Origin: Rhynchopus sp. YZ270_cl-10
Lineage: Eukaryota; Euglenozoa; Diplonemea; Diplonemida; Diplonemidae
Reading direction: 5' to 3'
Assembly: GCA_964035575.1 (NCBI GenBank)
Contig: OZ037932.1
Location: 868,001-932,000 of the forward strand
Length of the DNA: 64,000 nt
Made by a program: the position numbers and the translations under genes
Shown: positions 19,473-59,901 of the stretch, in pieces
Layout of the letters: every line of letters starts with the position of its first letter
How positions within the stretch are numbered: position 1 is the stretch's first letter
The notes under the pieces: generated by a model
The model's input: the letters and a program-made list of their open reading frames with translations, nothing else
What the model was told of the DNA's origin: nothing
Database searches by the model: none

Positions 19473-19485
19473 ATTGTCTGGCTTG

Positions 19486-32509: not shown

Positions 32510-33123
32510 CATACCACCACCCCCCTCCCTATCTCTCCAACCCCACCCTCCCTAATCCAACCTCCTCCAACTACACACAAACTCATCCCCCTTACACCCC
32601 ACAAAACAAAACATGTACCGGTACAGCAGCACCAACAACAACAACATCAGCAGCAACAACAGCAGAGGCACCTAATACGACAGCAACAACAACAACATCA
32701 CCAGCAGCAACAACAGCAGCATCAACAGCAGTGGCCGCTTACACGACAACAACAACAGCAACATCACCAGCAGCATCAACAGCAGCAACGACAGCTACAA
32801 CAACAACGGCAACAGCAACAACAACAACGACAACATCACCAGCAGCAGCAACAGCAACAGCACCAACAACTGCACCAACAGCTGCAACCATCTGAGGGAC
32901 GACGCCACCTCCTACACCTGAGACGTCTACTTCTCCTGAGGTGCGGCGACGTAGAGCAGAACCCCGGACCAGAGGAAGCCCTGAAGCTGATCAGCTTCAA
33001 CTGCAACGGGCTGACCGAGCAACGGGAAGAGGAGCTGCAGGAGTTACTGAACTCGGAGCACTTCGATGTGGTGGCTCTGCAGGAGCTGAAGGAGGCGCAG
33101 ACAGCACTGCCCGCGTTCCCGGG
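32510..33123 (+). CDS. LINE ORF2 segment 1: Gln/His tract, 2A peptide and start of the endonuclease
   Basis: The frame of the 2A peptide is open from here, and also far upstream through ORF1, but contains no Met between 32510 and the 2A. About 85 residues of Gln with His and Arg (CAG/CAA repeats, 32621-32890) lead into LRRLLLLRCGDVEQNPGP. The last part is a canonical 2A sequence, with separation expected between Gly and Pro (32968/32969). The endonuclease starts at once: LISFNCNGL, then VVALQELKE, the Asn and Glu metal-site motifs of the apurinic-type family. The segment is cut at 33123 by the 17.8-kb insertion. Confidence 0.8.
32939..32971 (+). other. 2A ribosome-skipping peptide (RCGDVEQNPGP)
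   Basis: This matches the D-V/I-E-x-N-P-G-P signature exactly and is preceded by a Leu-rich helix, as in known 2A sequences. In L1Tc-type elements a 2A lies at the same place, just in front of the endonuclease. It would release the upstream Gln-rich peptide from the enzymes during translation. Confidence 0.9.
33117..33123. repeat. Target-site duplication TCCCGGG (left copy)
   Basis: The right copy is at 50949-50955. With one copy and the insertion removed, LINE codons TTC CCG GGC TAC ACC run on without a break. Confidence 0.85.
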
Positions 33124-36100
33124 CATGGCTAGGAGTGTGGCAGCCACACGTGGCAGCGTGGCTGCCACGTGGCTGCCACGTGGCAGCCACACAGGTGGTC
33201 AAAAAGCCAAAAAATAGATGTCCATTTTGAGACACTTTTGGTACCAACTTTTCCTTAGGGATTTTAACTTTTGTGTTAGCAAAAAAAGCAAAAAAGTTTG
33301 GTTGCTCTACGGTCAACCTGGAAATCTACTAACGTAGAGGACATGGCTAGGAGTGTGGCAGCCACACGTGGCAGCGTGGCTGCCACGTGGCTGCCACGTG
33401 GCAGCCACACAGGTGGTCAAAAAGCCAAAAAATAGATGTCCATTTTGAGACACTTTTGGTACCAACTTTTCCTTAGGGATTTTAACTTTTGTGTTAGCAA
33501 AAAAAGCAAAAAAGTTTGGTTGCTCTACGGTCAACCTGGAAATCTACTAACGTAGAGGACATGGCTAGGAGTGTGGCAGCCACACGTGGCAGCGTGGCTG
33601 CCACGTGGCTGCCACGTGGCAGCCACACAGGTGGTCAAAAAGCCAAAAAATAGATGTCCATTTTGAGACACTTTTGGTACCAACTTTTCCTTAGGGATTT
33701 TAACTTTTGTGTTAGCAAAAAAAGCAAAAAAGTTTGGTTGCTCTACGGTCAACCTGGAAATCTACTAACGTAGAGGACATGGCTAGGAGTGTGGCAGCCA
33801 CACGTGGCAGCGTGGCTGCCACGTGGCTGCCACGTGGCAGCCACACAGGTGGTCAAAAAGCCAAAAAATAGATGTCCATTTTGAGACACTTTTGGTACCA
33901 ACTTTTCCTTAGGGATTTTAACTTTTGTGTTAGCAAAAAAAGCAAAAAAGTTTGGTTGCTCTACGGTCAACCTGGAAATCTACTAACGTAGAGGACATGG
34001 CTAGGAGTGTGGCAGCCACACGTGGCAGCGTGGCTGCCACGTGGCTGCCACGTGGCAGCCACACAGGTGGTCAAAAAGCCAAAAAATAGATGTCCATTTT
34101 GAGACACTTTTGGTACCAACTTTTCCTTAGGGATTTTAACTTTTGTGTTAGCAAAAAAAGCAAAAAAGTTTGGTTGCTCTACGGTCAACCTGGAAATCTA
34201 CTAACGTAGAGGACATGGCTAGGAGTGTGGCAGCCACACGTGGCAGCGTGGCTGCCACGTGGCTGCCACGTGGCAGCCACACAGGTGGTCAAAAAGCCAA
34301 AAAATAGATGTCCATTTTGAGACACTTTTGGTACCAACTTTTCCTTAGGGATTTTAACTTTTGTGTTAGCAAAAAAAGCAAAAAAGTTTGGTTGCTCTAC
34401 GGTCAACCTGGAAATCTACTAACGTAGAGGACATGGCTAGGAGTGTGGCAGCCACACGTGGCAGCGTGGCTGCCACGTGGCTGCCACGTGGCAGCCACAC
34501 AGGTGGTCAAAAAGCCAAAAAATAGATGTCCATTTTGAGACACTTTTGGTACCAACTTTTCCTTAGGGATTTTAACTTTTGTGTTAGCAAAAAAAGCAAA
34601 AAAGTTTGGTTGCTCTACGGTCAACCTGGAAATCTACTAACGTAGAGGACATGGCTAGGAGTGTGGCAGCCACACGTGGCAGCGTGGCTGCCACGTGGCT
34701 GCCACGTGGCAGCCACACAGGTGGTCAAAAAGCCAAAAAATAGATGTCCATTTTGAGACACTTTTGGTACCAACTTTTCCTTAGGGATTTTAACTTTTGT
34801 GTTAGCAAAAAAAGCAAAAAAGTTTGGTTGCTCTACGGTCAACCTGGAAATCTACTAACGTAGAGGACATGGCTAGGAGTGTGGCAGCCACACGTGGCAG
34901 CGTGGCTGCCACGTGGCTGCCACGTGGCAGCCACACAGGTGGTCAAAAAGCCAAAAAATAGATGTCCATTTTGAGACACTTTTGGTACCAACTTTTCCTT
35001 AGGGATTTTAACTTTTGTGTTAGCAAAAAAAGCAAAAAAGTTTGGTTGCTCTACGGTCAACCTGGAAATCTACTAACGTAGAGGACATGGCTAGGAGTGT
35101 GGCAGCCACACGTGGCAGCGTGGCTGCCACGTGGCTGCCACGTGGCAGCCACACAGGTGGTCAAAAAGCCAAAAAATAGATGTCCATTTTGAGACACTTT
35201 TGGTACCAACTTTTCCTTAGGGATTTTAACTTTTGTGTTAGCAAAAAAAGCAAAAAAGTTTGGTTGCTCTACGGTCAACCTGGAAATCTACTAACGTAGA
35301 GGACATGGCTAGGAGTGTGGCAGCCACACGTGGCAGCGTGGCTGCCACGTGGCTGCCACGTGGCAGCCACACAGGTGGTCAAAAAGCCAAAAAATAGATG
35401 TCCATTTTGAGACACTTTTGGTACCAACTTTTCCTTAGGGATTTTAACTTTTGTGTTAGCAAAAAAAGCAAAAAAGTTTGGTTGCTCTACGGTCAACCTG
35501 GAAATCTACTAACGTAGAGGTCATGGCTAGGAGTGTGGCAGCCACACGTGGCAGCGTGGCTGCCACGTGGCTGCCACGTGGCAGCCACACAGGTGGTCAA
35601 AAAGCCAAAAAATAGATGTCCATTTTGAGACACTTTTGGTACCAACTTTTCCTTAGGGATTTTAACTTTTGTGTTAGCAAAAAAAGCAAAAAAGTTTGGT
35701 TGCTCTACGGTCAACCTGGAAATCTACTAACGTAGAGGTCATGGCTAGGAGTGTGGCAGCCACACGTGGCAGCGTGGCTGCCACGTGGCTGCCACGTGGC
35801 AGCCACACAGGTGGTCAAAAAGCCAAAAAATAGATGTCCATTTTGAGACACTTTTGGTACCAACTTTTCCTTAGGGATTTTAACTTTTGTGTTAGCAAAA
35901 AAAGCAAAAAAGTTTGGTTGCTCTACGGTCAACCTGGAAATCTACTAACGTAGAGGTCATGGCTAGGAGTGTGGCAGCCACACGTGGCAGCGTGGCTGCC
36001 ACGTGGCTGCCACGTGGCAGCCACACAGGTGGTCAAAAAGCCAAAAAATAGATGTCCATTTTGAGACACTTTTGGTACCAACTTTTCCTTAGGGATTTTA

Positions 36101-38196
36101 ACTTTTGTGTTAGCAAAAAAAGCAAAAAAGTTTGGTTGCTCTACGGTCAACCTGGAAATCTACTAACGTAGAGGACATGGCTAGGAGTGTGGCAGCCACA
36201 CGTGGCAGCGTGGCTGCCACGTGGCTGCCACGTGGCAGCCACACAGGTGGTCAAAAAGCCAAAAAATAGATGTCCATTTTGAGACACTTTTGGTACCAAC
36301 TTTTCCTTAGGGATTTTAACTTTTGTGTTAGCAAAAAAAGCAAAAAAGTTTGGTTGCTCTACGGTCAACCTGGAAATCTACTAACGTAGAGGTCATGGCT
36401 AGGAGTGTGGCAGCCACACGTGGCAGCGTGGCTGCCACGTGGCTGCCACGTGGCAGCCACACAGGTGGTCAAAAAGCCAAAAAATAGATGTCCATTTTGA
36501 GACACTTTTGGTACCAACTTTTCCTTAGGGATTTTAACTTTTGTGTTAGCAAAAAAAGCAAAAAAGTTTGGTTGCTCTACGGTCAACCTGGAAATCTACT
36601 AACGTAGAGGACATGGCTAGGAGTGTGGCAGCCACACGTGGCAGCGTGGCTGCCACGTGGCTGCCACGTGGCAGCCACACAGGTGGTCAAAAAGCCAAAA
36701 AATAGATGTCCATTTTGAGACACTTTTGGTACCAACTTTTCCTTAGGGATTTTAACTTTTGTGTTAGCAAAAAAAGCAAAAAAGTTTGGTTGCTCTACGG
36801 TCAACCTGGAAATCTACTAACGTAGAGGTCATGGCTAGGAGTGTGGCAGCCACACGTGGCAGCGTGGCTGCCACGTGGCTGCCACGTGGCAGCCACACAG
36901 GTGGTCAAAAAGCCAAAAAATAGATGTCCATTTTGAGACACTTTTGGTACCAACTTTTCCTTAGGGATTTTAACTTTTGTGTTAGCAAAAAAAGCAAAAA
37001 AGTTTGGTTGCTCTACGGTCAACCTGGAAATCTACTAACGTAGAGGACATGGCTAGGAGTGTGGCAGCCACACGTGGCAGCGTGGCTGCCACGTGGCTGC
37101 CACGTGGCAGCCACACAGGTGGTCAAAAAGCCAAAAAATAGATGTCCATTTTGAGACACTTTTGGTACCAACTTTTCCTTAGGGATTTTAACTTTTGTGT
37201 TAGCAAAAAAAGCAAAAAAGTTTGGTTGCTCTACGGTCAACCTGGAAATCTACTAACGTAGAGGACATGGCTAGGAGTGTGGCAGCCACACGTGGCAGCG
37301 TGGCTGCCACGTGGCTGCCACGTGGCAGCCACACAGGTGGTCAAAAAGCCAAAAAATAGATGTCCATTTTGAGACACTTTTGGTACCAACTTTTCCTTAG
37401 GGATTTTAACTTTTGTGTTAGCAAAAAAAGCAAAAAAGTTTGGTTGCTCTACGGTCAACCTGGAAATCTACTAACGTAGAGGTCATGGCTAGGAGTGTGG
37501 CAGCCACACGTGGCAGCGTGGCTGCCACGTGGCTGCCACGTGGCAGCCACACAGGTGGTCAAAAAGCCAAAAAATAGATGTCCATTTTGAGACACTTTTG
37601 GTACCAACTTTTCCTTAGGGATTTTAACTTTTGTGTTAGCAAAAAAAGCAAAAAAGTTTGGTTGCTCTACGGTCAACCTGGAAATCTACTAACGTAGAGG
37701 ACATGGCTAGGAGTGTGGCAGCCACACGTGGCAGCGTGGCTGCCACGTGGCTGCCACGTGGCAGCCACACAGGTGGTCAAAAAGCCAAAAAATAGATGTC
37801 CATTTTGAGACACTTTTGGTACCAACTTTTCCTTAGGGATTTTAACTTTTGTGTTAGCAAAAAAAGCAAAAAAGTTTGGTTGCTCTACGGTCAACCTGGA
37901 AATCTACTAACGTAGAGGACATGGCTAGGAGTGTGGCAGCCACACGTGGCAGCGTGGCTGCCACGTGGCTGCCACGTGGCAGCCACACAGGTGGTCAAAA
38001 AGCCAAAAAATAGATGTCCATTTTGAGACACTTTTGGTACCAACTTTTCCTTAGGGATTTTAACTTTTGTGTTAGCAAAAAAAGCAAAAAAGTTTGGTTG
38101 CTCTACGGTCAACCTGGAAATCTACTAACGTAGAGGACATGGCTAGGAGTGTGGCAGCCACACGTGGCAGCGTGGCTGCCACGTGGCTGCCACGTG
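33124..38196 (+). repeat. 218-bp tandem array, left part (about 23 units)
   Basis: Each unit starts CATGGCTAGGAGTGTGGCAG, i.e. with the element's own terminal sequence, continues with a GTGGCTGCCACGTGGCAGCC palindrome, and ends TACTAACGTAGAGGA or TACTAACGTAGAGGT. Units appear identical except for that one A/T site, which points to very recent amplification or strong homogenisation. Confidence 0.97.
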
Positions 38197-38505
38197 CATG
38201 GCTCTAAGTCGGTAGAATCGACCAGATGGGCGGTTTTACCGTACGGGGGGGTCGACCTGCCGAAAAACTTGGCCAAAATCACATTTTTAAAAAATCAATT
38301 TTGGTTTTTTTTTTTCCTAGGGAAATTTTCCGTGTACTTAGCGAAATTTTCAAAAAATAGGTGGTTATTACCATGGCTCTAAGTCGGTAGAATCGACCAG
38401 ATGGGCGGTTTTACCGTACGGGGGGGTCGACCTGCCGAAAAACTTGGCCAAAATCACATTTTTAAAAAATCAATTTTGGTTTTTTTTTTTCCTAGGGAGA
38501 TTTTC

Positions 38506-38583
38506 CGTGGCTGGGCGCCGAAGGGCTACGGGCGGCTCCGCTTCGCTACGCTTTCGCCCTGCGCCCTTTGGCGCCCAGCCACG
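38506..38583. repeat. GC-rich hairpin
   Basis: Arms CGTGGCTGGGCGCC (38506-38519) and its exact inverse (38570-38583) enclose a second imperfect pair GAAGGGC/GCCCTTT. It interrupts the second tandem copy of the element's left end and may itself be a small insertion. Confidence 0.7.
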
Positions 38584-39259
38584 AAAAATTTTCCCACGGA
38601 AAAAGCAACGCGCTACGTACTTAAATCAGCAGTATAACTTGGTATCGCCAACAAGGGGAAGGGCACCGCTGTCTGGTCCACTTGGTCTCTTCAACATGAT
38701 GAGACTATGTACCAAAACCCGCACCTTGTGTGACTCTAGCTCACCCCTTTGGAGGTAGCAGTTCGCTACTTAACTGACGGCTTCCTAGATGGATCTTCGC
38801 AGTGACTAGCATGCACCTGTCATTAGTTTCGCCATGACCCCCCATCAAGAGTAGTGTCCTCTGCCTATTACCTGATGTCTTAGGGTACGCAAACTTAAGC
38901 GCTTTTCAGTGCACAGGCAATGTACTGTCCCGCAAACCCGGCACAGGGTATGACCAAATGGACCGTATTTTGGCTAAAATTTTGACTTGAACATTTTGTT
39001 CACAATTTGCCCAATCTGAGGTTTTCATGGGATTCTTTGCTCCATTTTATGACGTACCACACCCGATTTTGGGAAACCACTGTATTGATGTAGGCTTGTA
39101 CCCAGGTGTATTTTTTCTAGCTACCTCAGTACACAAGGTATGACCAAAATAGCCGTATTTTGGTTGAAAATTTGAGTTGAAAATTTTATTCATAATTTGC
39201 CCAATCTGAGGTTTTCATTGGATTCTTTGGGCCATTTTATGAGGTACCACGGCAAATTT

Positions 39260-40474
39260 CCTTAACACTCAGTGTTAAGGTCTTTAAGGTTGCTGATCAC
39301 CCCACCCTCCCCGCGCGGGGTGGGTTTCGGCCATTTTTTTTCAGGTCTCTAAACCTCCAAAGAGGTCAAAAAAGTGGATTCTTGGGAAGATAGGAGGTTT
39401 TTTTTAGGGTTTGCAAATGAGAAAGACCTCCAAACCCTGACAGACCCTGAAACGAGGGTGTCGCGAGTTAGCTATTTCCCTCCCTCCCGCCAGAGCCCGA
39501 GGGCGCCCTTGAGGGAGGTCAGGGCAGCCCGAGGGCCGAAGGCCCGAGGGCGCCCTGACCTCCCGAAAGGGCAGCCCGAGGGCCAAGGGAGGGAGGGATG
39601 TAGCTTTGTGACCCGAAGATCTCGTTTTCGACCCGAACTGCCTGCAAACAAGCGCTTTTGTGGTGTTTTGTGTACAAACACGTAGGTTTTTCGGCCCACA
39701 TGGGTACCATCGTTTGTGGCCTACGGACGCCCAAAAGCATGCGGATACGCTTTTCGAGTCGCAGAAACCAGGTTGTGGGCCGTTTTAAAAAGTTTTTGGC
39801 CGGTTTCAGTCACCAAAACGAACATTCTCTCGCGGGAATTTTTGGTGCTCTCAAGGGAATCCTCTTAGCTCTCAAGGGAATCCCTTGAGACCTCTGGAGG
39901 GTTACAAACCCCTTTTTTACACGTGTTTCTTAAGGGTTCTACAGGCAAAACAGGCGTTTTGGCCGAAAACCCGGTTTTTCAGGCAGGTAACCGGGTTTGC
40001 GGCTTGGAAAACGTGCCAGAGCGGTGTGAGAACCATGCGTGGGGGTTTGTAACCACTCGTTGCGTTGGTTGCGTTGCGTTCGCTACGTTGCGTACACATA
40101 GCTACGTGCACACCGGTTACGTTGTGTTGCATGCGTTGCGTTCGTTGTGTAGAGATCGTTATATACAGAGTGCAACGAACAGAGCGGTTGCGTTGCGTTG
40201 CTTGTGTTCGGTTGGTTACGTTCGTTGCGTTCCGATCGTTTCGTACACATCGGTTGCGTTGCGTTGCATGCGTTGCGTTCGGTGCGTTGCGTTGCTTCCG
40301 TGTCTTTGGTTCGAGACGTTACGTACCGAACGGTTGCGTTGCGTCAGTTGCATTCGTTCCGTACACATCATTCCGATCTGAACGCAAGAAACGTATCGCA
40401 TCGGTTGCGTTGGTTGGCTTGTGTGCGTTGCAAACCTTTCATACATCAACCACACCAGCCAGTGAGTGTTAAGG
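39260..40474 (+). mobile_element. GTTGCG-family element A, 1.2 kb, nested in element 2
   Basis: The ends are CCTTAACACTC and GAGTGTTAAGG, and the left end is itself a palindrome, CCTTAACACTCAGTGTTAAG(G). It shares with copy B (56549-57336) the ACAGGCGTTTTGGCC block, GGTAACCGGGTTTGCGGCTTG, GAACCATGCGTGGGGGTTTG and long CGTTGCGTT-type runs. An extra GC-rich hairpin (39513-39525 with 39552-39564) occurs only in this copy. No clear target duplication and no coding capacity. Confidence 0.7.
39513..39564. repeat. GC-rich double hairpin in element A
   Basis: Arms GGGAGGTCAGGGC and GCCCTGACCTCCC are exact inverses, enclosing a smaller GGGCC/GGCCC pair. Outer CCCTCCCTCCC and GGGAGGGAGGG tracts (39478-39490, 39586-39597) extend the pairing. 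Confidence 0.75.
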
Positions 40475-41022
40475 ATTGCCAAAAAAAACTAAATTTGGGC
40501 GAAAAAAAAAATTTTTTTTTCGTCAAAAATCGCCTTGTATAACCACTGTATTGGTGTAGGCTTGTACACAAAAGTGTGTTTTATGTAACCACAGATGGTC
40601 AAAACACCCGATTTTTGCGTTTTTTTGCAGTTTTTGGTGCCCAAAAACCCAGGTAAGGGGTCGAAATTTTCCCGAAAAAAAAAATTTTTTTTTTGAGATT
40701 TTTCGATTTTTTGCTAAGGTGCTGGCCCATACAAACTGTACAGGGTGGGTATTTTATACACAAAATAGCCGTGGAATAAATTCTAGATGCTCAAAACATC
40801 AAAATTCTGGCTTTATTTGCATTTTTGGTGCAGACATGTGCAAAAAAAAAATTTTTTTTTCTGTGGGAAAAATTTTGTGATGTCGAAAAAAAAAAATTTT
40901 TTTTTGACGGTAGACGGTAGGTGGTCGACCGACGGTAGGTCGACTTGTCGACTGTTTTGACGGTAGGGTCGACAAAGTCGACTCCAGAGTCGACAGCTAC
41001 CGACTTAGAGCCATGCCACGTG

Positions 41023-44000
41023 GCAGCCACACAGGTGGTCAAAAAGCCAAAAAATAGATGTCCATTTTGAGACACTTTTGGTACCAACTTTTCCTTAGGG
41101 ATTTTAACTTTTGTGTTAGCAAAAAAAGCAAAAAAGTTTGGTTGCTCTACGGTCAACCTGGAAATCTACTAACGTAGAGGACATGGCTAGGAGTGTGGCA
41201 GCCACACGTGGCAGCGTGGCTGCCACGTGGCTGCCACGTGGCAGCCACACAGGTGGTCAAAAAGCCAAAAAATAGATGTCCATTTTGAGACACTTTTGGT
41301 ACCAACTTTTCCTTAGGGATTTTAACTTTTGTGTTAGCAAAAAAAGCAAAAAAGTTTGGTTGCTCTACGGTCAACCTGGAAATCTACTAACGTAGAGGAC
41401 ATGGCTAGGAGTGTGGCAGCCACACGTGGCAGCGTGGCTGCCACGTGGCTGCCACGTGGCAGCCACACAGGTGGTCAAAAAGCCAAAAAATAGATGTCCA
41501 TTTTGAGACACTTTTGGTACCAACTTTTCCTTAGGGATTTTAACTTTTGTGTTAGCAAAAAAAGCAAAAAAGTTTGGTTGCTCTACGGTCAACCTGGAAA
41601 TCTACTAACGTAGAGGACATGGCTAGGAGTGTGGCAGCCACACGTGGCAGCGTGGCTGCCACGTGGCTGCCACGTGGCAGCCACACAGGTGGTCAAAAAG
41701 CCAAAAAATAGATGTCCATTTTGAGACACTTTTGGTACCAACTTTTCCTTAGGGATTTTAACTTTTGTGTTAGCAAAAAAAGCAAAAAAGTTTGGTTGCT
41801 CTACGGTCAACCTGGAAATCTACTAACGTAGAGGACATGGCTAGGAGTGTGGCAGCCACACGTGGCAGCGTGGCTGCCACGTGGCTGCCACGTGGCAGCC
41901 ACACAGGTGGTCAAAAAGCCAAAAAATAGATGTCCATTTTGAGACACTTTTGGTACCAACTTTTCCTTAGGGATTTTAACTTTTGTGTTAGCAAAAAAAG
42001 CAAAAAAGTTTGGTTGCTCTACGGTCAACCTGGAAATCTACTAACGTAGAGGTCATGGCTAGGAGTGTGGCAGCCACACGTGGCAGCGTGGCTGCCACGT
42101 GGCTGCCACGTGGCAGCCACACAGGTGGTCAAAAAGCCAAAAAATAGATGTCCATTTTGAGACACTTTTGGTACCAACTTTTCCTTAGGGATTTTAACTT
42201 TTGTGTTAGCAAAAAAAGCAAAAAAGTTTGGTTGCTCTACGGTCAACCTGGAAATCTACTAACGTAGAGGTCATGGCTAGGAGTGTGGCAGCCACACGTG
42301 GCAGCGTGGCTGCCACGTGGCTGCCACGTGGCAGCCACACAGGTGGTCAAAAAGCCAAAAAATAGATGTCCATTTTGAGACACTTTTGGTACCAACTTTT
42401 CCTTAGGGATTTTAACTTTTGTGTTAGCAAAAAAAGCAAAAAAGTTTGGTTGCTCTACGGTCAACCTGGAAATCTACTAACGTAGAGGTCATGGCTAGGA
42501 GTGTGGCAGCCACACGTGGCAGCGTGGCTGCCACGTGGCTGCCACGTGGCAGCCACACAGGTGGTCAAAAAGCCAAAAAATAGATGTCCATTTTGAGACA
42601 CTTTTGGTACCAACTTTTCCTTAGGGATTTTAACTTTTGTGTTAGCAAAAAAAGCAAAAAAGTTTGGTTGCTCTACGGTCAACCTGGAAATCTACTAACG
42701 TAGAGGACATGGCTAGGAGTGTGGCAGCCACACGTGGCAGCGTGGCTGCCACGTGGCTGCCACGTGGCAGCCACACAGGTGGTCAAAAAGCCAAAAAATA
42801 GATGTCCATTTTGAGACACTTTTGGTACCAACTTTTCCTTAGGGATTTTAACTTTTGTGTTAGCAAAAAAAGCAAAAAAGTTTGGTTGCTCTACGGTCAA
42901 CCTGGAAATCTACTAACGTAGAGGTCATGGCTAGGAGTGTGGCAGCCACACGTGGCAGCGTGGCTGCCACGTGGCTGCCACGTGGCAGCCACACAGGTGG
43001 TCAAAAAGCCAAAAAATAGATGTCCATTTTGAGACACTTTTGGTACCAACTTTTCCTTAGGGATTTTAACTTTTGTGTTAGCAAAAAAAGCAAAAAAGTT
43101 TGGTTGCTCTACGGTCAACCTGGAAATCTACTAACGTAGAGGACATGGCTAGGAGTGTGGCAGCCACACGTGGCAGCGTGGCTGCCACGTGGCTGCCACG
43201 TGGCAGCCACACAGGTGGTCAAAAAGCCAAAAAATAGATGTCCATTTTGAGACACTTTTGGTACCAACTTTTCCTTAGGGATTTTAACTTTTGTGTTAGC
43301 AAAAAAAGCAAAAAAGTTTGGTTGCTCTACGGTCAACCTGGAAATCTACTAACGTAGAGGACATGGCTAGGAGTGTGGCAGCCACACGTGGCAGCGTGGC
43401 TGCCACGTGGCTGCCACGTGGCAGCCACACAGGTGGTCAAAAAGCCAAAAAATAGATGTCCATTTTGAGACACTTTTGGTACCAACTTTTCCTTAGGGAT
43501 TTTAACTTTTGTGTTAGCAAAAAAAGCAAAAAAGTTTGGTTGCTCTACGGTCAACCTGGAAATCTACTAACGTAGAGGTCATGGCTAGGAGTGTGGCAGC
43601 CACACGTGGCAGCGTGGCTGCCACGTGGCTGCCACGTGGCAGCCACACAGGTGGTCAAAAAGCCAAAAAATAGATGTCCATTTTGAGACACTTTTGGTAC
43701 CAACTTTTCCTTAGGGATTTTAACTTTTGTGTTAGCAAAAAAAGCAAAAAAGTTTGGTTGCTCTACGGTCAACCTGGAAATCTACTAACGTAGAGGACAT
43801 GGCTAGGAGTGTGGCAGCCACACGTGGCAGCGTGGCTGCCACGTGGCTGCCACGTGGCAGCCACACAGGTGGTCAAAAAGCCAAAAAATAGATGTCCATT
43901 TTGAGACACTTTTGGTACCAACTTTTCCTTAGGGATTTTAACTTTTGTGTTAGCAAAAAAAGCAAAAAAGTTTGGTTGCTCTACGGTCAACCTGGAAATC

Positions 44001-47000
44001 TACTAACGTAGAGGACATGGCTAGGAGTGTGGCAGCCACACGTGGCAGCGTGGCTGCCACGTGGCTGCCACGTGGCAGCCACACAGGTGGTCAAAAAGCC
44101 AAAAAATAGATGTCCATTTTGAGACACTTTTGGTACCAACTTTTCCTTAGGGATTTTAACTTTTGTGTTAGCAAAAAAAGCAAAAAAGTTTGGTTGCTCT
44201 ACGGTCAACCTGGAAATCTACTAACGTAGAGGACATGGCTAGGAGTGTGGCAGCCACACGTGGCAGCGTGGCTGCCACGTGGCTGCCACGTGGCAGCCAC
44301 ACAGGTGGTCAAAAAGCCAAAAAATAGATGTCCATTTTGAGACACTTTTGGTACCAACTTTTCCTTAGGGATTTTAACTTTTGTGTTAGCAAAAAAAGCA
44401 AAAAAGTTTGGTTGCTCTACGGTCAACCTGGAAATCTACTAACGTAGAGGACATGGCTAGGAGTGTGGCAGCCACACGTGGCAGCGTGGCTGCCACGTGG
44501 CTGCCACGTGGCAGCCACACAGGTGGTCAAAAAGCCAAAAAATAGATGTCCATTTTGAGACACTTTTGGTACCAACTTTTCCTTAGGGATTTTAACTTTT
44601 GTGTTAGCAAAAAAAGCAAAAAAGTTTGGTTGCTCTACGGTCAACCTGGAAATCTACTAACGTAGAGGACATGGCTAGGAGTGTGGCAGCCACACGTGGC
44701 AGCGTGGCTGCCACGTGGCTGCCACGTGGCAGCCACACAGGTGGTCAAAAAGCCAAAAAATAGATGTCCATTTTGAGACACTTTTGGTACCAACTTTTCC
44801 TTAGGGATTTTAACTTTTGTGTTAGCAAAAAAAGCAAAAAAGTTTGGTTGCTCTACGGTCAACCTGGAAATCTACTAACGTAGAGGACATGGCTAGGAGT
44901 GTGGCAGCCACACGTGGCAGCGTGGCTGCCACGTGGCTGCCACGTGGCAGCCACACAGGTGGTCAAAAAGCCAAAAAATAGATGTCCATTTTGAGACACT
45001 TTTGGTACCAACTTTTCCTTAGGGATTTTAACTTTTGTGTTAGCAAAAAAAGCAAAAAAGTTTGGTTGCTCTACGGTCAACCTGGAAATCTACTAACGTA
45101 GAGGACATGGCTAGGAGTGTGGCAGCCACACGTGGCAGCGTGGCTGCCACGTGGCTGCCACGTGGCAGCCACACAGGTGGTCAAAAAGCCAAAAAATAGA
45201 TGTCCATTTTGAGACACTTTTGGTACCAACTTTTCCTTAGGGATTTTAACTTTTGTGTTAGCAAAAAAAGCAAAAAAGTTTGGTTGCTCTACGGTCAACC
45301 TGGAAATCTACTAACGTAGAGGACATGGCTAGGAGTGTGGCAGCCACACGTGGCAGCGTGGCTGCCACGTGGCTGCCACGTGGCAGCCACACAGGTGGTC
45401 AAAAAGCCAAAAAATAGATGTCCATTTTGAGACACTTTTGGTACCAACTTTTCCTTAGGGATTTTAACTTTTGTGTTAGCAAAAAAAGCAAAAAAGTTTG
45501 GTTGCTCTACGGTCAACCTGGAAATCTACTAACGTAGAGGTCATGGCTAGGAGTGTGGCAGCCACACGTGGCAGCGTGGCTGCCACGTGGCTGCCACGTG
45601 GCAGCCACACAGGTGGTCAAAAAGCCAAAAAATAGATGTCCATTTTGAGACACTTTTGGTACCAACTTTTCCTTAGGGATTTTAACTTTTGTGTTAGCAA
45701 AAAAAGCAAAAAAGTTTGGTTGCTCTACGGTCAACCTGGAAATCTACTAACGTAGAGGTCATGGCTAGGAGTGTGGCAGCCACACGTGGCAGCGTGGCTG
45801 CCACGTGGCTGCCACGTGGCAGCCACACAGGTGGTCAAAAAGCCAAAAAATAGATGTCCATTTTGAGACACTTTTGGTACCAACTTTTCCTTAGGGATTT
45901 TAACTTTTGTGTTAGCAAAAAAAGCAAAAAAGTTTGGTTGCTCTACGGTCAACCTGGAAATCTACTAACGTAGAGGACATGGCTAGGAGTGTGGCAGCCA
46001 CACGTGGCAGCGTGGCTGCCACGTGGCTGCCACGTGGCAGCCACACAGGTGGTCAAAAAGCCAAAAAATAGATGTCCATTTTGAGACACTTTTGGTACCA
46101 ACTTTTCCTTAGGGATTTTAACTTTTGTGTTAGCAAAAAAAGCAAAAAAGTTTGGTTGCTCTACGGTCAACCTGGAAATCTACTAACGTAGAGGTCATGG
46201 CTAGGAGTGTGGCAGCCACACGTGGCAGCGTGGCTGCCACGTGGCTGCCACGTGGCAGCCACACAGGTGGTCAAAAAGCCAAAAAATAGATGTCCATTTT
46301 GAGACACTTTTGGTACCAACTTTTCCTTAGGGATTTTAACTTTTGTGTTAGCAAAAAAAGCAAAAAAGTTTGGTTGCTCTACGGTCAACCTGGAAATCTA
46401 CTAACGTAGAGGACATGGCTAGGAGTGTGGCAGCCACACGTGGCAGCGTGGCTGCCACGTGGCTGCCACGTGGCAGCCACACAGGTGGTCAAAAAGCCAA
46501 AAAATAGATGTCCATTTTGAGACACTTTTGGTACCAACTTTTCCTTAGGGATTTTAACTTTTGTGTTAGCAAAAAAAGCAAAAAAGTTTGGTTGCTCTAC
46601 GGTCAACCTGGAAATCTACTAACGTAGAGGACATGGCTAGGAGTGTGGCAGCCACACGTGGCAGCGTGGCTGCCACGTGGCTGCCACGTGGCAGCCACAC
46701 AGGTGGTCAAAAAGCCAAAAAATAGATGTCCATTTTGAGACACTTTTGGTACCAACTTTTCCTTAGGGATTTTAACTTTTGTGTTAGCAAAAAAAGCAAA
46801 AAAGTTTGGTTGCTCTACGGTCAACCTGGAAATCTACTAACGTAGAGGACATGGCTAGGAGTGTGGCAGCCACACGTGGCAGCGTGGCTGCCACGTGGCT
46901 GCCACGTGGCAGCCACACAGGTGGTCAAAAAGCCAAAAAATAGATGTCCATTTTGAGACACTTTTGGTACCAACTTTTCCTTAGGGATTTTAACTTTTGT

Positions 47001-49398
47001 GTTAGCAAAAAAAGCAAAAAAGTTTGGTTGCTCTACGGTCAACCTGGAAATCTACTAACGTAGAGGACATGGCTAGGAGTGTGGCAGCCACACGTGGCAG
47101 CGTGGCTGCCACGTGGCTGCCACGTGGCAGCCACACAGGTGGTCAAAAAGCCAAAAAATAGATGTCCATTTTGAGACACTTTTGGTACCAACTTTTCCTT
47201 AGGGATTTTAACTTTTGTGTTAGCAAAAAAAGCAAAAAAGTTTGGTTGCTCTACGGTCAACCTGGAAATCTACTAACGTAGAGGACATGGCTAGGAGTGT
47301 GGCAGCCACACGTGGCAGCGTGGCTGCCACGTGGCTGCCACGTGGCAGCCACACAGGTGGTCAAAAAGCCAAAAAATAGATGTCCATTTTGAGACACTTT
47401 TGGTACCAACTTTTCCTTAGGGATTTTAACTTTTGTGTTAGCAAAAAAAGCAAAAAAGTTTGGTTGCTCTACGGTCAACCTGGAAATCTACTAACGTAGA
47501 GGACATGGCTAGGAGTGTGGCAGCCACACGTGGCAGCGTGGCTGCCACGTGGCTGCCACGTGGCAGCCACACAGGTGGTCAAAAAGCCAAAAAATAGATG
47601 TCCATTTTGAGACACTTTTGGTACCAACTTTTCCTTAGGGATTTTAACTTTTGTGTTAGCAAAAAAAGCAAAAAAGTTTGGTTGCTCTACGGTCAACCTG
47701 GAAATCTACTAACGTAGAGGACATGGCTAGGAGTGTGGCAGCCACACGTGGCAGCGTGGCTGCCACGTGGCTGCCACGTGGCAGCCACACAGGTGGTCAA
47801 AAAGCCAAAAAATAGATGTCCATTTTGAGACACTTTTGGTACCAACTTTTCCTTAGGGATTTTAACTTTTGTGTTAGCAAAAAAAGCAAAAAAGTTTGGT
47901 TGCTCTACGGTCAACCTGGAAATCTACTAACGTAGAGGACATGGCTAGGAGTGTGGCAGCCACACGTGGCAGCGTGGCTGCCACGTGGCTGCCACGTGGC
48001 AGCCACACAGGTGGTCAAAAAGCCAAAAAATAGATGTCCATTTTGAGACACTTTTGGTACCAACTTTTCCTTAGGGATTTTAACTTTTGTGTTAGCAAAA
48101 AAAGCAAAAAAGTTTGGTTGCTCTACGGTCAACCTGGAAATCTACTAACGTAGAGGACATGGCTAGGAGTGTGGCAGCCACACGTGGCAGCGTGGCTGCC
48201 ACGTGGCTGCCACGTGGCAGCCACACAGGTGGTCAAAAAGCCAAAAAATAGATGTCCATTTTGAGACACTTTTGGTACCAACTTTTCCTTAGGGATTTTA
48301 ACTTTTGTGTTAGCAAAAAAAGCAAAAAAGTTTGGTTGCTCTACGGTCAACCTGGAAATCTACTAACGTAGAGGACATGGCTAGGAGTGTGGCAGCCACA
48401 CGTGGCAGCGTGGCTGCCACGTGGCTGCCACGTGGCAGCCACACAGGTGGTCAAAAAGCCAAAAAATAGATGTCCATTTTGAGACACTTTTGGTACCAAC
48501 TTTTCCTTAGGGATTTTAACTTTTGTGTTAGCAAAAAAAGCAAAAAAGTTTGGTTGCTCTACGGTCAACCTGGAAATCTACTAACGTAGAGGACATGGCT
48601 AGGAGTGTGGCAGCCACACGTGGCAGCGTGGCTGCCACGTGGCTGCCACGTGGCAGCCACACAGGTGGTCAAAAAGCCAAAAAATAGATGTCCATTTTGA
48701 GACACTTTTGGTACCAACTTTTCCTTAGGGATTTTAACTTTTGTGTTAGCAAAAAAAGCAAAAAAGTTTGGTTGCTCTACGGTCAACCTGGAAATCTACT
48801 AACGTAGAGGACATGGCTAGGAGTGTGGCAGCCACACGTGGCAGCGTGGCTGCCACGTGGCTGCCACGTGGCAGCCACACAGGTGGTCAAAAAGCCAAAA
48901 AATAGATGTCCATTTTGAGACACTTTTGGTACCAACTTTTCCTTAGGGATTTTAACTTTTGTGTTAGCAAAAAAAGCAAAAAAGTTTGGTTGCTCTACGG
49001 TCAACCTGGAAATCTACTAACGTAGAGGTCATGGCTAGGAGTGTGGCAGCCACACGTGGCAGCGTGGCTGCCACGTGGCTGCCACGTGGCAGCCACACAG
49101 GTGGTCAAAAAGCCAAAAAATAGATGTCCATTTTGAGACACTTTTGGTACCAACTTTTCCTTAGGGATTTTAACTTTTGTGTTAGCAAAAAAAGCAAAAA
49201 AGTTTGGTTGCTCTACGGTCAACCTGGAAATCTACTAACGTAGAGGACATGGCTAGGAGTGTGGCAGCCACACGTGGCAGCGTGGCTGCCACGTGGCTGC
49301 CACGTGGCAGCCACACAGGTGGTCAAAAAGCCAAAAAATAGATGTCCATTTTGAGACACTTTTGGTACCAACTTTTCCTTAGGGATTTTAACTTTTGT
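41023..49398 (+). repeat. 218-bp tandem array, right part (about 38 units)
   Basis: It continues the left array without change of phase once the nested element and one CCACGTG are removed. The A/T state of the single variable site follows a pattern (T T T A T A A T from the unit boundaries near 42043) that is also found in the left part from about 35520 and, in part, in the second array element. Confidence 0.97.
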
Positions 49399-49485
49399 GG
49401 CGCTTCGCGCCTAAGGGCTTCGCCCTTCGGCGCGAAGCGCCACAAAAGTTAAAATCCCTAAGGAAAAGTTGGTACCAAAAGTGTC
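49355..49485. repeat. Perfect long palindrome, 57-bp arms with 17-bp centre
   Basis: The left arm (49355-49411) begins inside a satellite unit at GACACTTTTGGTACCAACTT and runs into GTGGCGCTTCGCGCC. The right arm (49429-49485) is its exact inverse. The 17-bp centre holds another small hairpin AAGGGC/GCCCTT. The array ends at this structure, so about 44 bp of satellite unit are present once forward and once inverted. Confidence 0.95.
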
Positions 49486-49685
49486 CATTCTTTTGCGAGG
49501 AGTGGAGGACTTCTGAAATCCTGCCACTGTCAAAAGAGAGAGTAGGAAGTATTTAGTGTGGTTTCTGTGGTGTAGTGTAAAAAAATGGGTAGGGTTTAGG
49601 GAGGAGAACAGGGGTTGATGTATGAAATGAAAAGTTCAAAAATAATCTTTGTTTTGTATACTCACATATTGTCTGTAGTGATCGT

Positions 49686-50050
49686 GTGGGCTACGAAGGA
49701 CTTCATTTCTGAAGAAATAAATGAAAAATATAATAAAGAATACGACAGACTTTATTTTTCAAAGAGGAGTAGCGAATACAACGAACTTCATTCTTGAAAA
49801 ATAAGGACTCGATTACGACGGACTTCATTATGAACAATGAAACCTCTATTACGACGGGCTTCATTCTGAATGATAAAACCTCGGTTACGACGGACTTCAT
49901 TCTGAATGATAAAACCTCGGTTACGACGGACTTCATTCTGAATGATAAAACATCGGTTACGACGGACTTCATTTTGAAGGATGAAACCTCGATTACGACG
50001 GACTTCATTCTGAATGATAAAACCTCGGTTACGACGGACTTCATTAATCG
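49686..50050 (+). repeat. 36-bp direct repeat, 6-7 core copies
   Basis: The unit reads ACGACGGACTTCATTCTGAA, then TGATAAAACCTCGGTT. As 36 is a multiple of three, both strands stay open: the plus frame 49794-50132 gives a 12-residue repeat of the type NDKTSVTTDFIL. The outer copies are more diverged than the central ones. Coding is not shown. Confidence 0.85.
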
Positions 50051-50055
50051 CGGAA

Positions 50056-50480
50056 TTCGATTTTCCCTTACGATCCTTATATTTTTTTTTTTTGGCCCTT
50101 TTTTCCTAGTTCTGGACCAATCTCTCAAATAAAGCCAGAATTTTCGACTTTTGAGCCTTTTTAAGCAATTTCCCCGCGTATTTCTGCAGGGAATAATCAA
50201 AAAAACGCAATTTTACCTTAGAAAAAGCGAAATTTTCGCAAAGACAAAAAAATTGAAAAATTTGAAAATTGCGAAATTCGGTTTTCCCTTACGATCCTTA
50301 TTTTTTTTTTTTGGCTCTTTTTTCCTAGTTCTGGCCCAATCTTTCAAATAAAGCCAGAATTTTCAACTTTTGAGCCTTTTTAAGCAATTTCCCTGCATTT
50401 TTCTGCAAAAAATCATCAAAATAACTCAATTTTGCCTTTGCGAAAATTGAAATTTTCGAGACAAAAATTTCAAAAATTTC
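50056..50480 (+). repeat. 221-bp direct repeat, two copies
   Basis: Copies start at about 50056 and 50277 with TTTTCCCTTACGATCCTTAT and share TTTTTTCCTAGTTCTGG, CAAATAAAGCCAGAATTTTC and GAGCCTTTTTAAGCAATTTC. They differ by a few per cent. They lie in the unique spacer of element 1. Confidence 0.8.
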
Positions 50481-50783
50481 ACAGTCATAAAAACGCTCAG
50501 GAAAAAATCGGGGTCCGTTTTTTGGGCAGACCCTTTGCGAAAAAAAAAATTTTTTTTTTTCGAAAAATTTTTTTTTCGACAACTACTTTCTGAGGTACCA
50601 GTTAAGGGCGGAAACTCAAAACCGCGTTTTAGATGACCACAGATGCTCAAAAGTGCCCGATTTTGCTTTTAATGAGCTCAAATCGTCAAAATAGGGTGCT
50701 CACAAAAAAATTTTTCAGAGTTCAGTTAGCACAGAAATCGCCGCTCCCACATGTGGCAGACGTGGCAGGTGTGGCAGCCACGT

Positions 50784-50832
50784 CTGCCACACCGTGGCGG
50801 TCGTGGCTGCCACGACCGCCACGGTGTGGCAG
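50784..50832. repeat. Perfect palindrome, 24-bp arms, in the element right end
   Basis: Arms 50784-50807 (CTGCCACACCGTGGCGGTCG...) and 50809-50832 are exact inverses around one T. It lies in a 200-bp stretch with more than a dozen GTGGC/GCCAC words just inside the right TIR, as subterminal transposase sites often do. Confidence 0.85.
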
Positions 50833-50955
50833 GGGTACCGCCACGTTGACCAGGAGAAAGCGTGGCAAGCGTGGCTGCCACGCGACCGCCACGCCCCTGC
50901 CACACCTCGACGTCACCGCCACACGTGGCAGCCACGCTCCGAGCCATGTCCCGGG

Positions 50956-52781
50956 CTACACCCCCTTCCTCCGGAAGCGCACGCAACGCCGCACCCCCAA
51001 TGGCAGCCTGTACTCCGGAGGCGGCATAGCCACGCTGGTGCACACAAGCCACCAAGCCTCCCTCACCTGGGCCAGCGGGGAGCCAAGTGTGACGGAGCGT
51101 CTTGACGTGAGGGTGACGACGGAGCATCGGGAGTACACGGTGACGAACCTGTACCGACCTGGAGGTGTAGGCAGCAGCGCTGATGACCTGCGTGTGGACG
51201 ACTTCTCTGCAGATGACCTCCCCTCCGACGAAGACTCCATCATCCTCGGTGACTTCAACGTCCACCACCCTGCGTGGGACCTCCAAGCGAAGCCAGATGC
51301 CAAAGGGTCACAGCTACACCAGTGGTCGCTGCGCAACGCCATGCAGGTGCTCAACTGCCCCAACACAGTCACGCGCTTCTCCGGAACAGTCTTCTCCTCA
51401 CCGGACATCACCTTGGTACACAGGAACGTAGAAGCCACATGGACCACACTTTGCGCACGAGGCTCCGACCACCTCCCCATCCTAGTCACAGTGCAACCTC
51501 CGACGGAAGGGGAGGAAGTGAACGGAGGCGACGAAGACGCGACAGTGCCCGAACACCTGCTGAGATGGTGCTGGTCACGTGCGGATTGGGAGGCGTACAC
51601 GGCAGAGCTGGAGCGTTACGCCCCCAAGGCCCACAACTGGGGTGGTGTAGATGCGGTGAACAGGTTCACGGGATTGTGCAAAAACATCGCAGAAAAACAC
51701 ATCCCACTCTCCCACCACACCTCCACACCAAGGGTCAGGAAGTCGTGGTTCACTCCTCAGGTCCATGAATTGCTGCAAGAACGCAACGCAGTGACGGAAC
51801 TACTTCTCTCCGCGGAAGAGACGGAACGCGACGTCCAAGCCGAAAAGCTGAAAGAGCTGAAGGTCGCCACCTCCTGTGCCATCATGGATGCGAAGCAGCA
51901 GGCATGGGTGCGTAGCTGCAACGCCGCCACACCACCACCTCTCAGCAGCACTTTCCGGAGGTTGAAGGAGCTCAGTGGTGACCGGGTGAAACCCATCACC
52001 AAAGCAGTCGCTACCCCGGAGGGCCCTCTGACGAACACACCGCAGGAAAAAGCGAACACCCTGGCCCGCTACTTCGCCGCAGTGAGTGGAGACGGCACGC
52101 CCCCTTCTCTCGCCAACCCGCAGCGTACTGCTAGGCGCAACAACACACAGAGCGAGGGCTACACCGGAGCGGCAAGCGAAGCTCCCTTCACCTTGCCGGA
52201 GCTCGATTACGCGATGAGCTCGCTGAAGCTGGGCAAAGCACCTGGGCTGGACGAGATGCACAACGAGCTCTTGCTGCATCTTGGGCCCAAAGGACGAGAC
52301 GCCTTACTCCACGTCCTCAACTTATCCTGGTGCAAAGGTGAACTCCCTACATCGTGGCTGCAGAGCAACATCGTGCCCATCGCTAAGAACGGGAAGGACG
52401 CCAGCATCCCCGCGTCGTACCGCCCCATCTCTCTTACGAGCAACGTCTGCAAACTCTTGGAGAAGATGGTCAAGTGCCGCATCACCCAGATGCAAGACAG
52501 TCCGGACCTGCCGCAGTACAGGGGCCCACACCGCACACAAGCAGGTTTCCGCCGTCGTCTCTCCACGATAGACCAGCTCGCGGCGCTCATGCAGCGGGTG
52601 AATGCGGGGAAGAACCGCCCCACCATCGCACTCTTCTTCGACGTAGAAAAGGCGTTCGACACTGTGTCTCGCAAGCGCATACTCCAGGCGCTGAAGCACA
52701 AGCAGCACCTGCCACCACGCTACCTCAACTGGATTGAAGCCTTCACCAGTGACCGCTCCGCCTGTGTTTCAGTGGATGGAG
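50956..52781 (+). CDS. LINE ORF2 segment 2: endonuclease C-part and reverse transcriptase N-part
   Basis: About 609 residues in phase with segment 1. The endonuclease continues with YTPFLRKR, NLYRPGG, ILGDFNVHHPAW (catalytic Asp/Asn), SSPDITLVH and GSDHLPIL (catalytic Asp-His). A helical linker of about 200 residues follows. The reverse transcriptase begins with LKLGKAPGLDEMHNELL, IVPIAKNGKDASIPASYRPI and SLTSNVCKLLEKMV, and has motif A, FFDVEKAFDTVSR. The segment stops at VSVDG, where the second array element is inserted. No stop codon or frame change lies inside the segment. Confidence 0.88.
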
Positions 52782-54611
52782 CATGGCTAGGAGTGTGGCA
52801 GCCACACGTGGCAGCGTGGCTGCCACGTGGCTGCCACGTGGCAGCCACACAGGTGGTCAAAAAGCCAAAAAATAGATGTCCATTTTGAGACACTTTTGGT
52901 ACCAACTTTTCCTTAGGGATTTTAACTTTTGTGTTAGCAAAAAAAGCAAAAAAGTTTGGTTGCTCTACGGTCAACCTGGAAATCTACTAACGTAGAGGTC
53001 ATGGCTAGGAGTGTGGCAGCCACACGTGGCAGCGTGGCTGCCACGTGGCTGCCACGTGGCAGCCACACAGGTGGTCAAAAAGCCAAAAAATAGATGTCCA
53101 TTTTGAGACACTTTTGGTACCAACTTTTCCTTAGGGATTTTAACTTTTGTGTTAGCAAAAAAAGCAAAAAAGTTTGGTTGCTCTACGGTCAACCTGGAAA
53201 TCTACTAACGTAGAGGTCATGGCTAGGAGTGTGGCAGCCACACGTGGCAGCGTGGCTGCCACGTGGCTGCCACGTGGCAGCCACACAGGTGGTCAAAAAG
53301 CCAAAAAATAGATGTCCATTTTGAGACACTTTTGGTACCAACTTTTCCTTAGGGATTTTAACTTTTGTGTTAGCAAAAAAAGCAAAAAAGTTTGGTTGCT
53401 CTACGGTCAACCTGGAAATCTACTAACGTAGAGGTCATGGCTAGGAGTGTGGCAGCCACACGTGGCAGCGTGGCTGCCACGTGGCTGCCACGTGGCAGCC
53501 ACACAGGTGGTCAAAAAGCCAAAAAATAGATGTCCATTTTGAGACACTTTTGGTACCAACTTTTCCTTAGGGATTTTAACTTTTGTGTTAGCAAAAAAAG
53601 CAAAAAAGTTTGGTTGCTCTACGGTCAACCTGGAAATCTACTAACGTAGAGGACATGGCTAGGAGTGTGGCAGCCACACGTGGCAGCGTGGCTGCCACGT
53701 GGCTGCCACGTGGCAGCCACACAGGTGGTCAAAAAGCCAAAAAATAGATGTCCATTTTGAGACACTTTTGGTACCAACTTTTCCTTAGGGATTTTAACTT
53801 TTGTGTTAGCAAAAAAAGCAAAAAAGTTTGGTTGCTCTACGGTCAACCTGGAAATCTACTAACGTAGAGGTCATGGCTAGGAGTGTGGCAGCCACACGTG
53901 GCAGCGTGGCTGCCACGTGGCTGCCACGTGGCAGCCACACAGGTGGTCAAAAAGCCAAAAAATAGATGTCCATTTTGAGACACTTTTGGTACCAACTTTT
54001 CCTTAGGGATTTTAACTTTTGTGTTAGCAAAAAAAGCAAAAAAGTTTGGTTGCTCTACGGTCAACCTGGAAATCTACTAACGTAGAGGTCATGGCTAGGA
54101 GTGTGGCAGCCACACGTGGCAGCGTGGCTGCCACGTGGCTGCCACGTGGCAGCCACACAGGTGGTCAAAAAGCCAAAAAATAGATGTCCATTTTGAGACA
54201 CTTTTGGTACCAACTTTTCCTTAGGGATTTTAACTTTTGTGTTAGCAAAAAAAGCAAAAAAGTTTGGTTGCTCTACGGTCAACCTGGAAATCTACTAACG
54301 TAGAGGACATGGCTAGGAGTGTGGCAGCCACACGTGGCAGCGTGGCTGCCACGTGGCTGCCACGTGGCAGCCACACAGGTGGTCAAAAAGCCAAAAAATA
54401 GATGTCCATTTTGAGACACTTTTGGTACCAACTTTTCCTTAGGGATTTTAACTTTTGTGTTAGCAAAAAAAGCAAAAAAGTTTGGTTGCTCTACGGTCAA
54501 CCTGGAAATCTACTAACGTAGAGGTCATGGCTAGGAGTGTGGCAGCCACACGTGGCAGCGTGGTCAAAAAGCCAAAAAATAGATGTCCATTTTGAGACAC
54601 TTTTGGTACAT
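52782..54611. mobile_element. CATGGCT-family element 3, 1.8 kb, eight 218-bp units
   Basis: The left end is CATGGCTAGGAG, as in element 1. The flanking duplication is GATGGAG (52775-52781, 54612-54618). Eight full units (boundaries 52782, 53000 ... 54526) are followed by one short unit with an internal loss between two GTGG words. The right end stops inside the unit at TTTTGGTACAT and lacks the inverted CATGGCT terminus. It nevertheless has a clean target duplication, so the shortened end was present when it inserted or was trimmed without loss of the flank. Confidence 0.88.
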
Positions 54612-54618
54612 GATGGAG

Positions 54619-58915: not shown

Positions 58916-59901
58916 CCCCCTTATCCCCATATGCAAGTAAGATACGTTACGCAATGTGGGAACGTACTACTCGTGCCCTACTCACTAGTTTATTTTTCTG
59001 CCACGACAACCCCCAGACTCAGCCCCTGCCCGTGGCCCGATGTAGTACCCTAAGCACACCCGATAGCGGCACAGGCAAATGCGACGACAAGGGGAGGAGG
59101 GGTGGGGAGAGCGATGGGTACCTGAAGTGGAAGTTGCGCCTCTGCTGGGTGTCCGAGTCTCATAGGTAATAACACGAGCCACATGCCCCAAAAGAACGCC
59201 ACCAACACCCCAACAAGGGCAAATCGTGTACGCCGCCACAACACAAACATACCTAAGAGATCAGGGCTCCTGGTGGGGGTTTGCGACTGCCACAGATGCC
59301 TGCCTCTCACTCTGCCCGCCCCCTCGCCCCTAAAGACACACAAACACACCAGTCACTGCATTTTGTTGATGTTAAAATCGATTGCGCCCTGGGTGCTATC
59401 TTGGGATATGAAAGGGGGAAAGCGTGTGATGGGGGCGAGCTGTGTGTACCCTATTTGCTGCCTTACGTTTCACTTTCCACACCGCCCCATATAAATACAC
59501 ACTAGTTATACTTACACAATGCATATTCCCTTTTATTTATTTATTTATTTTTTTTTTTTTTTTTTTTTTTTTGAGTGACTTTTAAGCGTATACCTTTGGC
59601 TAAGCACGCCACGACACCGCTTACATTACTGCGCGCACCACTCCATTTGTATTTTCCAGTTTTAGGGGAGGTATCCTCGCGTACGAGTTGTTTGACTCCA
59701 AAGTGATTCCCCGGCCTCTCAAGCAAGCAGGAGACCAACGTCAGGGGAGGTGTAATGAGATACCCTGGGCCGTGCCCACCTTTTGTGTTCTGTTCATTTT
59801 GTTTGAGTGGTGCGCCCACCTTGCTTTTTGTTCATTGTGTACTAACCTATCGCAATAAAAAGACCACTAAAGGCCAAAGAGAAAAAAAAAAAAAAAAAAA
59901 A
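58916..59901. other. Spacer up to satellite array 2
   Basis: No gene is recognised. ATATAAATA with TTACACAAT about 25 bp behind it (59490-59522) resembles the TATTTAATA...TTACACAAT pair found in both copies of the preceding repeat. A T run of about 23 bp lies at 59550-59572 and an A run at 59882-59901. The satellite begins directly after the A run. Confidence 0.45.

Follow-up and report, generated by a model that had tools for sequence, protein, structure and literature searches.

When every unit of a tandem array begins with the terminus of a transposon, is the array a satellite into which a mobile element has inserted, or is it the end of the mobile element itself? This question is raised by a stretch of 64,000 nucleotides from the diplonemid Rhynchopus sp. 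YZ270_cl-10, referred to below as the window (contig OZ037932.1, or C100, positions 868001–932000). The assembly comprises 152.4 Mb in 126 contigs, which are designated here by C numbers. A first-pass annotation of the window described three insertions, here elements A, B and C, with shared inverted termini and 7-bp target duplications; the flanks of all three were located, and these observations proved real. The insertions likely belong to a hAT-related lineage of cut-and-paste DNA transposons whose left end consists of complete terminal units of 175–241 bp arrayed head to tail. The arrangement is not that of a foldback element and is unlikely to be an escaped satellite.

Termini and terminal arrays

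Element A (33124..50948; 17,825 bp including the nested element B) consists of an array, a hairpin and a single-copy right arm; like B and C and their ends, it is read on the forward strand. The 7-mer TCCCGGG occurs in the window only at 33117 and 50949, that is, on either side of A (33117..33123 and 50949..50955). The array (33124..49399) holds 61 full 218-bp units and a 62nd truncated past unit position 152. Every unit starts at the element terminus, as had been claimed for a one-sided array. Once B and one copy of its target duplication, which interrupt the array at 38197–41022, are removed by script, the units fall into two versions (46 versus 15) distinguished by A or T at base 218. The 62nd unit diverges at position 153, where it enters a near-perfect hairpin of 131 nt (49355..49485; z = -24.8) that closes the array, and whose outer arms are an inverse repeat of part of the unit. 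Another A copy (C36:826201–826650, L098) has the closing hairpin minus its centre. Beyond the hairpin, the single-copy right arm terminates in AGCCATG (50942–50948), and the right end (50745..50948) is rich in GTGGC/GCCAC, like the left unit.

Element B (38197..41015; 2,819 bp), a copy without a transposase frame, is nested in the A array between two copies of CCACGTG (38190..38196 and 41016..41022), a 7-mer that is also common within the A units. Its 175-bp left terminus is present twice (38197..38509; starts at 38197 and 38372), the second copy being truncated at 138 bp. A hairpin (38485..38604; z = -10.4) closes this short array, and the 19-bp right inverted repeat (40997..41015) matches the left one perfectly. 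The tandem pattern had been noted in A and C, where it stands; since the nested B carries its own terminal duplication, all three insertions show it. In both A and B, the order of parts is array, truncated unit, strong hairpin, body and single-copy right end.

Element C (52782..54611) comprises eight full 218-bp units and an 86-bp remnant, without a normal right end. Its flanking GATGGAG copies (52775..52781 and 54612..54618) have three further occurrences in the window, and its right junction has a single match in the genome when one mismatch is allowed. Derivation of C by one clean deletion of the right arm was rejected, as it would leave one G too many; the element may end either in CATG with a 6-bp duplication or in CAT with a 7-bp one.

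The termini were also followed through the genome; here and below, genome-wide numbers of elements, arrays and long interspersed nuclear elements (LINEs) refer to the matches listed and are lower bounds rather than a census. Both ends were read for 20 elements: 10 copies of A, eight of B, C, and one copy of a further element, D (C76:266059–274094), which has 228-bp units, termini CAAGGCTACC and the duplication CTGGGGG, and whose array is closed by a small hairpin (read by eye). An exact 7-bp duplication, with its second copy past the far end of the element, was found in 19 of the 20; the match was never longer, and none was of 8 bp. As a chance control, comparing the flanking 7-mers between elements gave agreement in 2 of 380 pairs. 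The 19 duplications are biased towards C at positions 1 (14/19) and 2 (12/19) and G at position 7 (12/19). A degenerate pattern for A and B ends preceded by G was found at 41 places, and the reversed pattern at none. CATGGCT, whose 73 occurrences in the window fall almost entirely at 218-bp steps within arrays, turned out to be only one of several kinds of termini, others being CAAGGCT and CAATGCT.

The right end was read in A, B and D and is single-copy in the copies read. Foldback elements have two long, inverted ends of tandem repeats; here only one end is repeated, so the likeness to foldback elements that had been remarked on is superficial. An A right end is present at the expected place at nine of the 12 A-type array loci (the array at C36:850763, with its left end unread, was paired with the right end at C36:860580 by position). 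The other three loci are element C, an array at C36:824542 with a right arm (L098) and no right end among the matches listed, and a hybrid array on C95 that sits between B right ends. In this hybrid (C95:1019951–1020800, L099), the B right end is present twice, and the two copies are separated by about two A units, with the joint at the terminus. The first-pass annotation had proposed a route from transposon end to a satellite that moves as a block. Movement as a block is borne out by the differing duplications and unit numbers; the satellite part of the proposal fares poorly, given nine A arrays of 12 with an A right end.

The same arrangement occurs in at least five families of units, of 175, 218, 228, 229/231 and 241 bp (units of 229 and 231 bp have a nearly identical head and were counted as one family). 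The leftmost unit and the internal joints begin at the same base in A, in B and at six loci of other units: two of 228 bp, two of 229 bp, one of 231 bp and one of 241 bp. The two 228-bp loci represent one duplicated insertion, because their flank is identical. They are D arrays (C76:274094, L106, and C76:297052, L111) with the same left flank in opposite orientation, in a duplicated stretch of C76. In the stretches near C42:521951 and C76:255701, no array was found. One array on C95 (C95:1007559–1010733, L060), which contains a run of N, mixes B and B' units that differ in the head and agree in the tail; in it, a truncated B unit meets the other unit type exactly at the terminus of the latter. 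Because the units of A, B, D and E, an element at C38, have a common core, the tandem-terminus arrangement is probably old.

The number of units varies widely. Counting the truncated unit, B arrays have two units at C100, C91, C65, C29, C22 and C33, three at C66, C42 and C12, four at C41, six at C79, 11 at C50, 18 at C67, 28 at C70 and at least 30 at C95; these counts omit C18, a second piece on C22 and diverged pieces elsewhere. The match of the last unit stops at position 138 in 14 of the 15 counted B loci and at 96 in C12. Counted A arrays have 62 units in the window, 14 at C36:840926, three at C85 and two at C10. Among three near-identical B copies, the unit number has changed by exactly one whole unit: the copies at C65 and C91 (1,583 bp each) show six differences in 1,583 bases, and the copy at C42 (1,758 bp), minus one 175-bp unit, shows six differences to C91 and eight to C65 per 1,583 bases, with no insertion or deletion.

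Transposase and relationship to hAT elements

No transposase was recognised in the window, in agreement with the first-pass annotation, and uninterrupted frames of hAT type were found in related elements elsewhere, namely in three complete B copies and in D. One of these B copies, at C66 (365898–371620), has an open frame of 1,100 amino acids. Frames of 1,107 amino acids on C70 and C95, both inside B elements, were found as 100% identical matches without stops. The arrays of these copies have three (C66), 28 (C70) and at least 30 (C95) units. D at C76 has an uninterrupted frame of at least 972 amino acids, 35% identical to B, and pieces of a B-related transposase (34–44% identity) lie inside A at C33 and, by position, inside A at C36. 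In some copies, the transposase is read towards the array. At C50, a 357-amino-acid tyrosine recombinase frame (L082, 688–1758; Phage_integrase, 3.3e-9) lies inside a B element, perhaps as part of a nested Crypton-like element.

The whole B protein scores 22.4 bits against Dimer_Tnp_hAT (PF05699), for which the curated cut-off is 21.4, and three B copies exceed this cut-off in a profile search of the genome; a DUF659 match in the B frame is under the cut-off. A protein search with B returned one identical protein and one, P0002, that is 48% identical. The catalytic motifs of hAT transposases are, in order, D in LDGAT, D in ADNA, CxxH, RW and E in SExxxERHF. They were found in this order in the alignment of B, P0002, D and two A pieces, which jointly cover the catalytic region and have LDAAT as the first motif.

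In their transposase domain and repeated subterminal motifs, the elements resemble Hermes, Ac and hobo, all hAT elements, and the ends of A are full of GTGGC, the motif of Hermes binding sites. They differ from these in their 7-bp duplications and in carrying complete left ends in arrays that reach kilobases in length. A target duplication of 8 bp is usual for hAT elements; since the duplications here are of 7 bp, we refer to the elements as hAT-related and not as standard hAT.

Heads of the units vary between families, and in A and D the head matches the right end of its own element. GTGGC occurs nine times in the A left head, 19 times in the A right end and not at all in the other heads and ends counted; GTGTCTTT occurs three times in the D head, six times in the D right end and nowhere else among those counted. 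The link is weak in B, where GTCGAC occurs once in the head and six times in the right end, and also once in D. By such motif counts, left unit and right end share motifs clearly in A and D and weakly in B.

The repeated left end and competing explanations

How might such an end be used and formed? The transposase is predicted to bind the repeated motifs, in which case the array would amount to a multiplied binding and cutting site. Any unit may act as the left end, and the element would then survive the gain or loss of units. Unequal exchange, gene conversion or gap repair could shift both the number and the uniformity of units. The first duplication, exact at the terminus, would stem from an end cut by transposase; in the simplest scenario, one element inserted into the left end of another, and the two then moved jointly, using the outer left end.

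Several observations weigh against this interpretation or the hAT assignment on which it draws. The Pfam margin of B is one bit only, which is modest support; the A pieces and the D frame pass no Pfam cut-off; and P0002 has no hAT match at E ≤ 0.1. The structure model of the transposase is of low confidence, with a pLDDT (predicted local distance difference test) of 30.5, and no hAT structure matched by sequence. The 8-bp duplication of hAT elements is replaced by one of 7 bp in 19 of 20 elements, and the twentieth, the A copy at C10, has none. The E element at C38 apparently has a single unit, so the array is not essential everywhere. Given the core common to the A, B, D and E units, their exact boundary may descend from one event. 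Finally, the B right end is covered in 6-mers better by the D head (0.60) and the 229-bp head (0.59) than by the B head (0.50), in part owing to A/T runs.

Array growth may, alternatively, reflect unequal exchange only and play no part in transposition, the first repeat having arisen as a tandem double insertion that was later trimmed, in the manner of the tandem hobo copies reported from Drosophila. We regard this as possible, if doubtful. An expansion of the hobo DNA transposon to 16 tandem copies is on record, and insertion-site preference is given as the main way in which dimers form, both in passages of a review (PMC12628747); the exact whole-unit difference between B copies would also fit. 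Against this, only the left end is repeated, its unit having a private tail, and the arrangement spans families whose transposases are 35% (D) or 34–44% (A pieces) identical to that of B. Moreover, the match of the A and D heads to their own right ends suggests that the arrays are used.

Membership in the P superfamily, to which Galileo and 1360 belong, was our initial guess, given the 7-bp duplications and CATG ends, and was dropped once the B transposase scored as hAT. The P element begins with CATG, and target duplications of 7–8 bp, a trait of the superfamily, are found here. Galileo-like elements, whose transposase is of the THAP/P type, have 7-bp duplications and tandem repeats in their ends, according to the portion of the literature at hand (PMC4168063). 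Yet the frame in complete B copies scores with a hAT family, and neither B nor D nor the A pieces have a P-type or THAP match listed at E ≤ 1. This origin is very unlikely. A genome search with one P-type domain gave no matches; because control genomes likewise gave none, that search carries no weight. Least probable of all is an ordinary satellite with unrelated transposons in or beside it, whose unit starts at the terminus by accident. In its favour, the arrays are long and homogeneous, the window has B embedded in the A array, and the B copy at C50 borders on a 231-bp array whose unit apparently runs on past it. Against it, leftmost unit and internal joints have boundaries that match base for base in A, in B and in the units of 228, 229, 231 and 241 bp, the second copy of the duplication lies past the far end in 19 of 20 elements, and no array without any element end was found among the loci followed.

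A tandem-terminus end of a hAT-related transposon remains our preferred explanation. A limited literature search did not show the same arrangement, and we do not claim that it is absent from print. In the parts of the literature covered, the nearest case is Tetris, followed by Galileo and the tandem hobo copies. Tetris/TIR-220 of Drosophila virilis, as described in sections of PMC4079207, likewise has variable tandem units of about 220 bp (218 on average) in the ends of a DNA transposon, in arrays that reach 66 copies and were amplified within the element. Unlike the elements described here, Tetris carries repeats at each of its inverted ends, internal to a flanking outer domain; its duplications are of 8–10 bp and, in those sections, it has no known transposase. 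Here the repeats are confined to the left end, the unit includes the terminus, the duplications are of 7 bp and a transposase is present. Galileo, in the portion cited above (PMC4168063), shares target duplications of 7 bp (three copies have 8 bp), ends that contain tandem repeats and a division into subfamilies, but has a P-type transposase and repeats inside long inverted ends, single-copy in D. willistoni, in contrast to our one-sided arrays of whole termini. The Xstir repeats of Xenopus are also tandem repeats from an inverted end that ride on a transposon, although their carrier, in the relevant part of PMC9659126, is a non-autonomous MITE (miniature inverted-repeat transposable element).

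Clusters of elements and the centromere question

The elements are not scattered over the contigs. Counts were made with one position per element, from the matches listed. In a set of 56 elements from 17 contigs, 78 of the 80 pairs on the same contig lie within 65 kb, compared with a mean of 6.7 and a maximum of 19 in 5,000 uniform draws. This set omits seven short fragments (79/106 with them), as well as weak or short matches on C2, C30, C31, C41, C64, C79 and C85 and one on C38. With positions merged at 10 kb and fragments kept, the figure is 28 of 44 pairs (mean 3.8, maximum 12). Restoring the omitted matches gives 84 of 115 pairs on 26 contigs; for the 22 contigs whose length is known, it is 83 of 111, where 5,000 uniform draws gave a mean of 9.3 and a maximum of 23. 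Neither count includes single matches on other contigs or a few short ones within clusters. Of the 17 contigs that carry multiple well-matched elements, 16 have them within a span of 1.5–58 kb, and C33 has an outlier. Different families mostly share one cluster per contig, at relative positions of 0.13–0.89; contigs with clusters include C12, C15, C18, C29, C36, C76, C91, C95 and C100. Other hAT copies of this genome are more dispersed, with 13 of 108 pairs within 65 kb, and of those on cluster-bearing contigs 5 of 38 lie within 65 kb of the cluster.

A LINE occupies the same clusters. In the window, one copy (31221–56519, interrupted) is split by the insertions of A and C, and the A copy at C36:840926–845418 likewise interrupts this LINE family, by position. 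The LINE frames contain a GDVEQNPGP motif, which we take to be 2A-like, a part that we presume from its motifs to be endonuclease-like, and a reverse transcriptase–RNase H part. Among the matches listed, 26 are at 93% or above (19 loci when merged at 6 kb). Twenty-one of these lie on contigs with a known array element, every one (21/21) within 65 kb of it; the other five are on C6, C14 and C87, contigs without an array element among the matches listed. Other LINE families are dispersed: of 41 LINE matches at 35–40% identity, 20 are on array contigs, two of them within 65 kb.

One cluster per contig suggests a centromere-like domain, and the clusters may be centromeres. Green algae have centromeric clusters of ZeppL LINEs, one cluster of a private LINE per chromosome. 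The clusters described here are similar, as far as contig clustering alone can tell, and differ in that they also hold array-bearing hAT-related elements. We tentatively propose, as a reading that is possible rather than probable, that the centromere of every chromosome is built jointly by a private LINE family and by hAT-related transposons with tandem termini. The repeated left end would then be a satellite spread by transposition, each family supplying its own monomer, with heads and transposase specificity co-evolving. We lowered our confidence in this proposal slightly on account of the restored weak matches and the five of 26 LINE matches on contigs without a listed array.

Other features of the window were recorded as well. 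A long 38-bp minisatellite (AGAAAACGGGCCC...) flanks the transposon block at 20586–29328 (about 230 copies) and 59901–64000 (at least 108). A fragment of eukaryotic 18S rRNA (128 bits) lies on the minus strand at 6124–6360, and a 1,452-amino-acid open frame with multicopper oxidase domains and long threonine/proline repeats spans 15216–19574.

These elements bear on the old questions of how satellite DNA begins and how it spreads. A single genome combines uninterrupted transposase frames, arrays of 2 to more than 60 units and several diverged families of the same arrangement. With these side by side, the steps become directly comparable and the role of the repeated ends can be tested. Should the clusters prove to be centromeres, both the satellite and the means of its spread would come from mobile elements.

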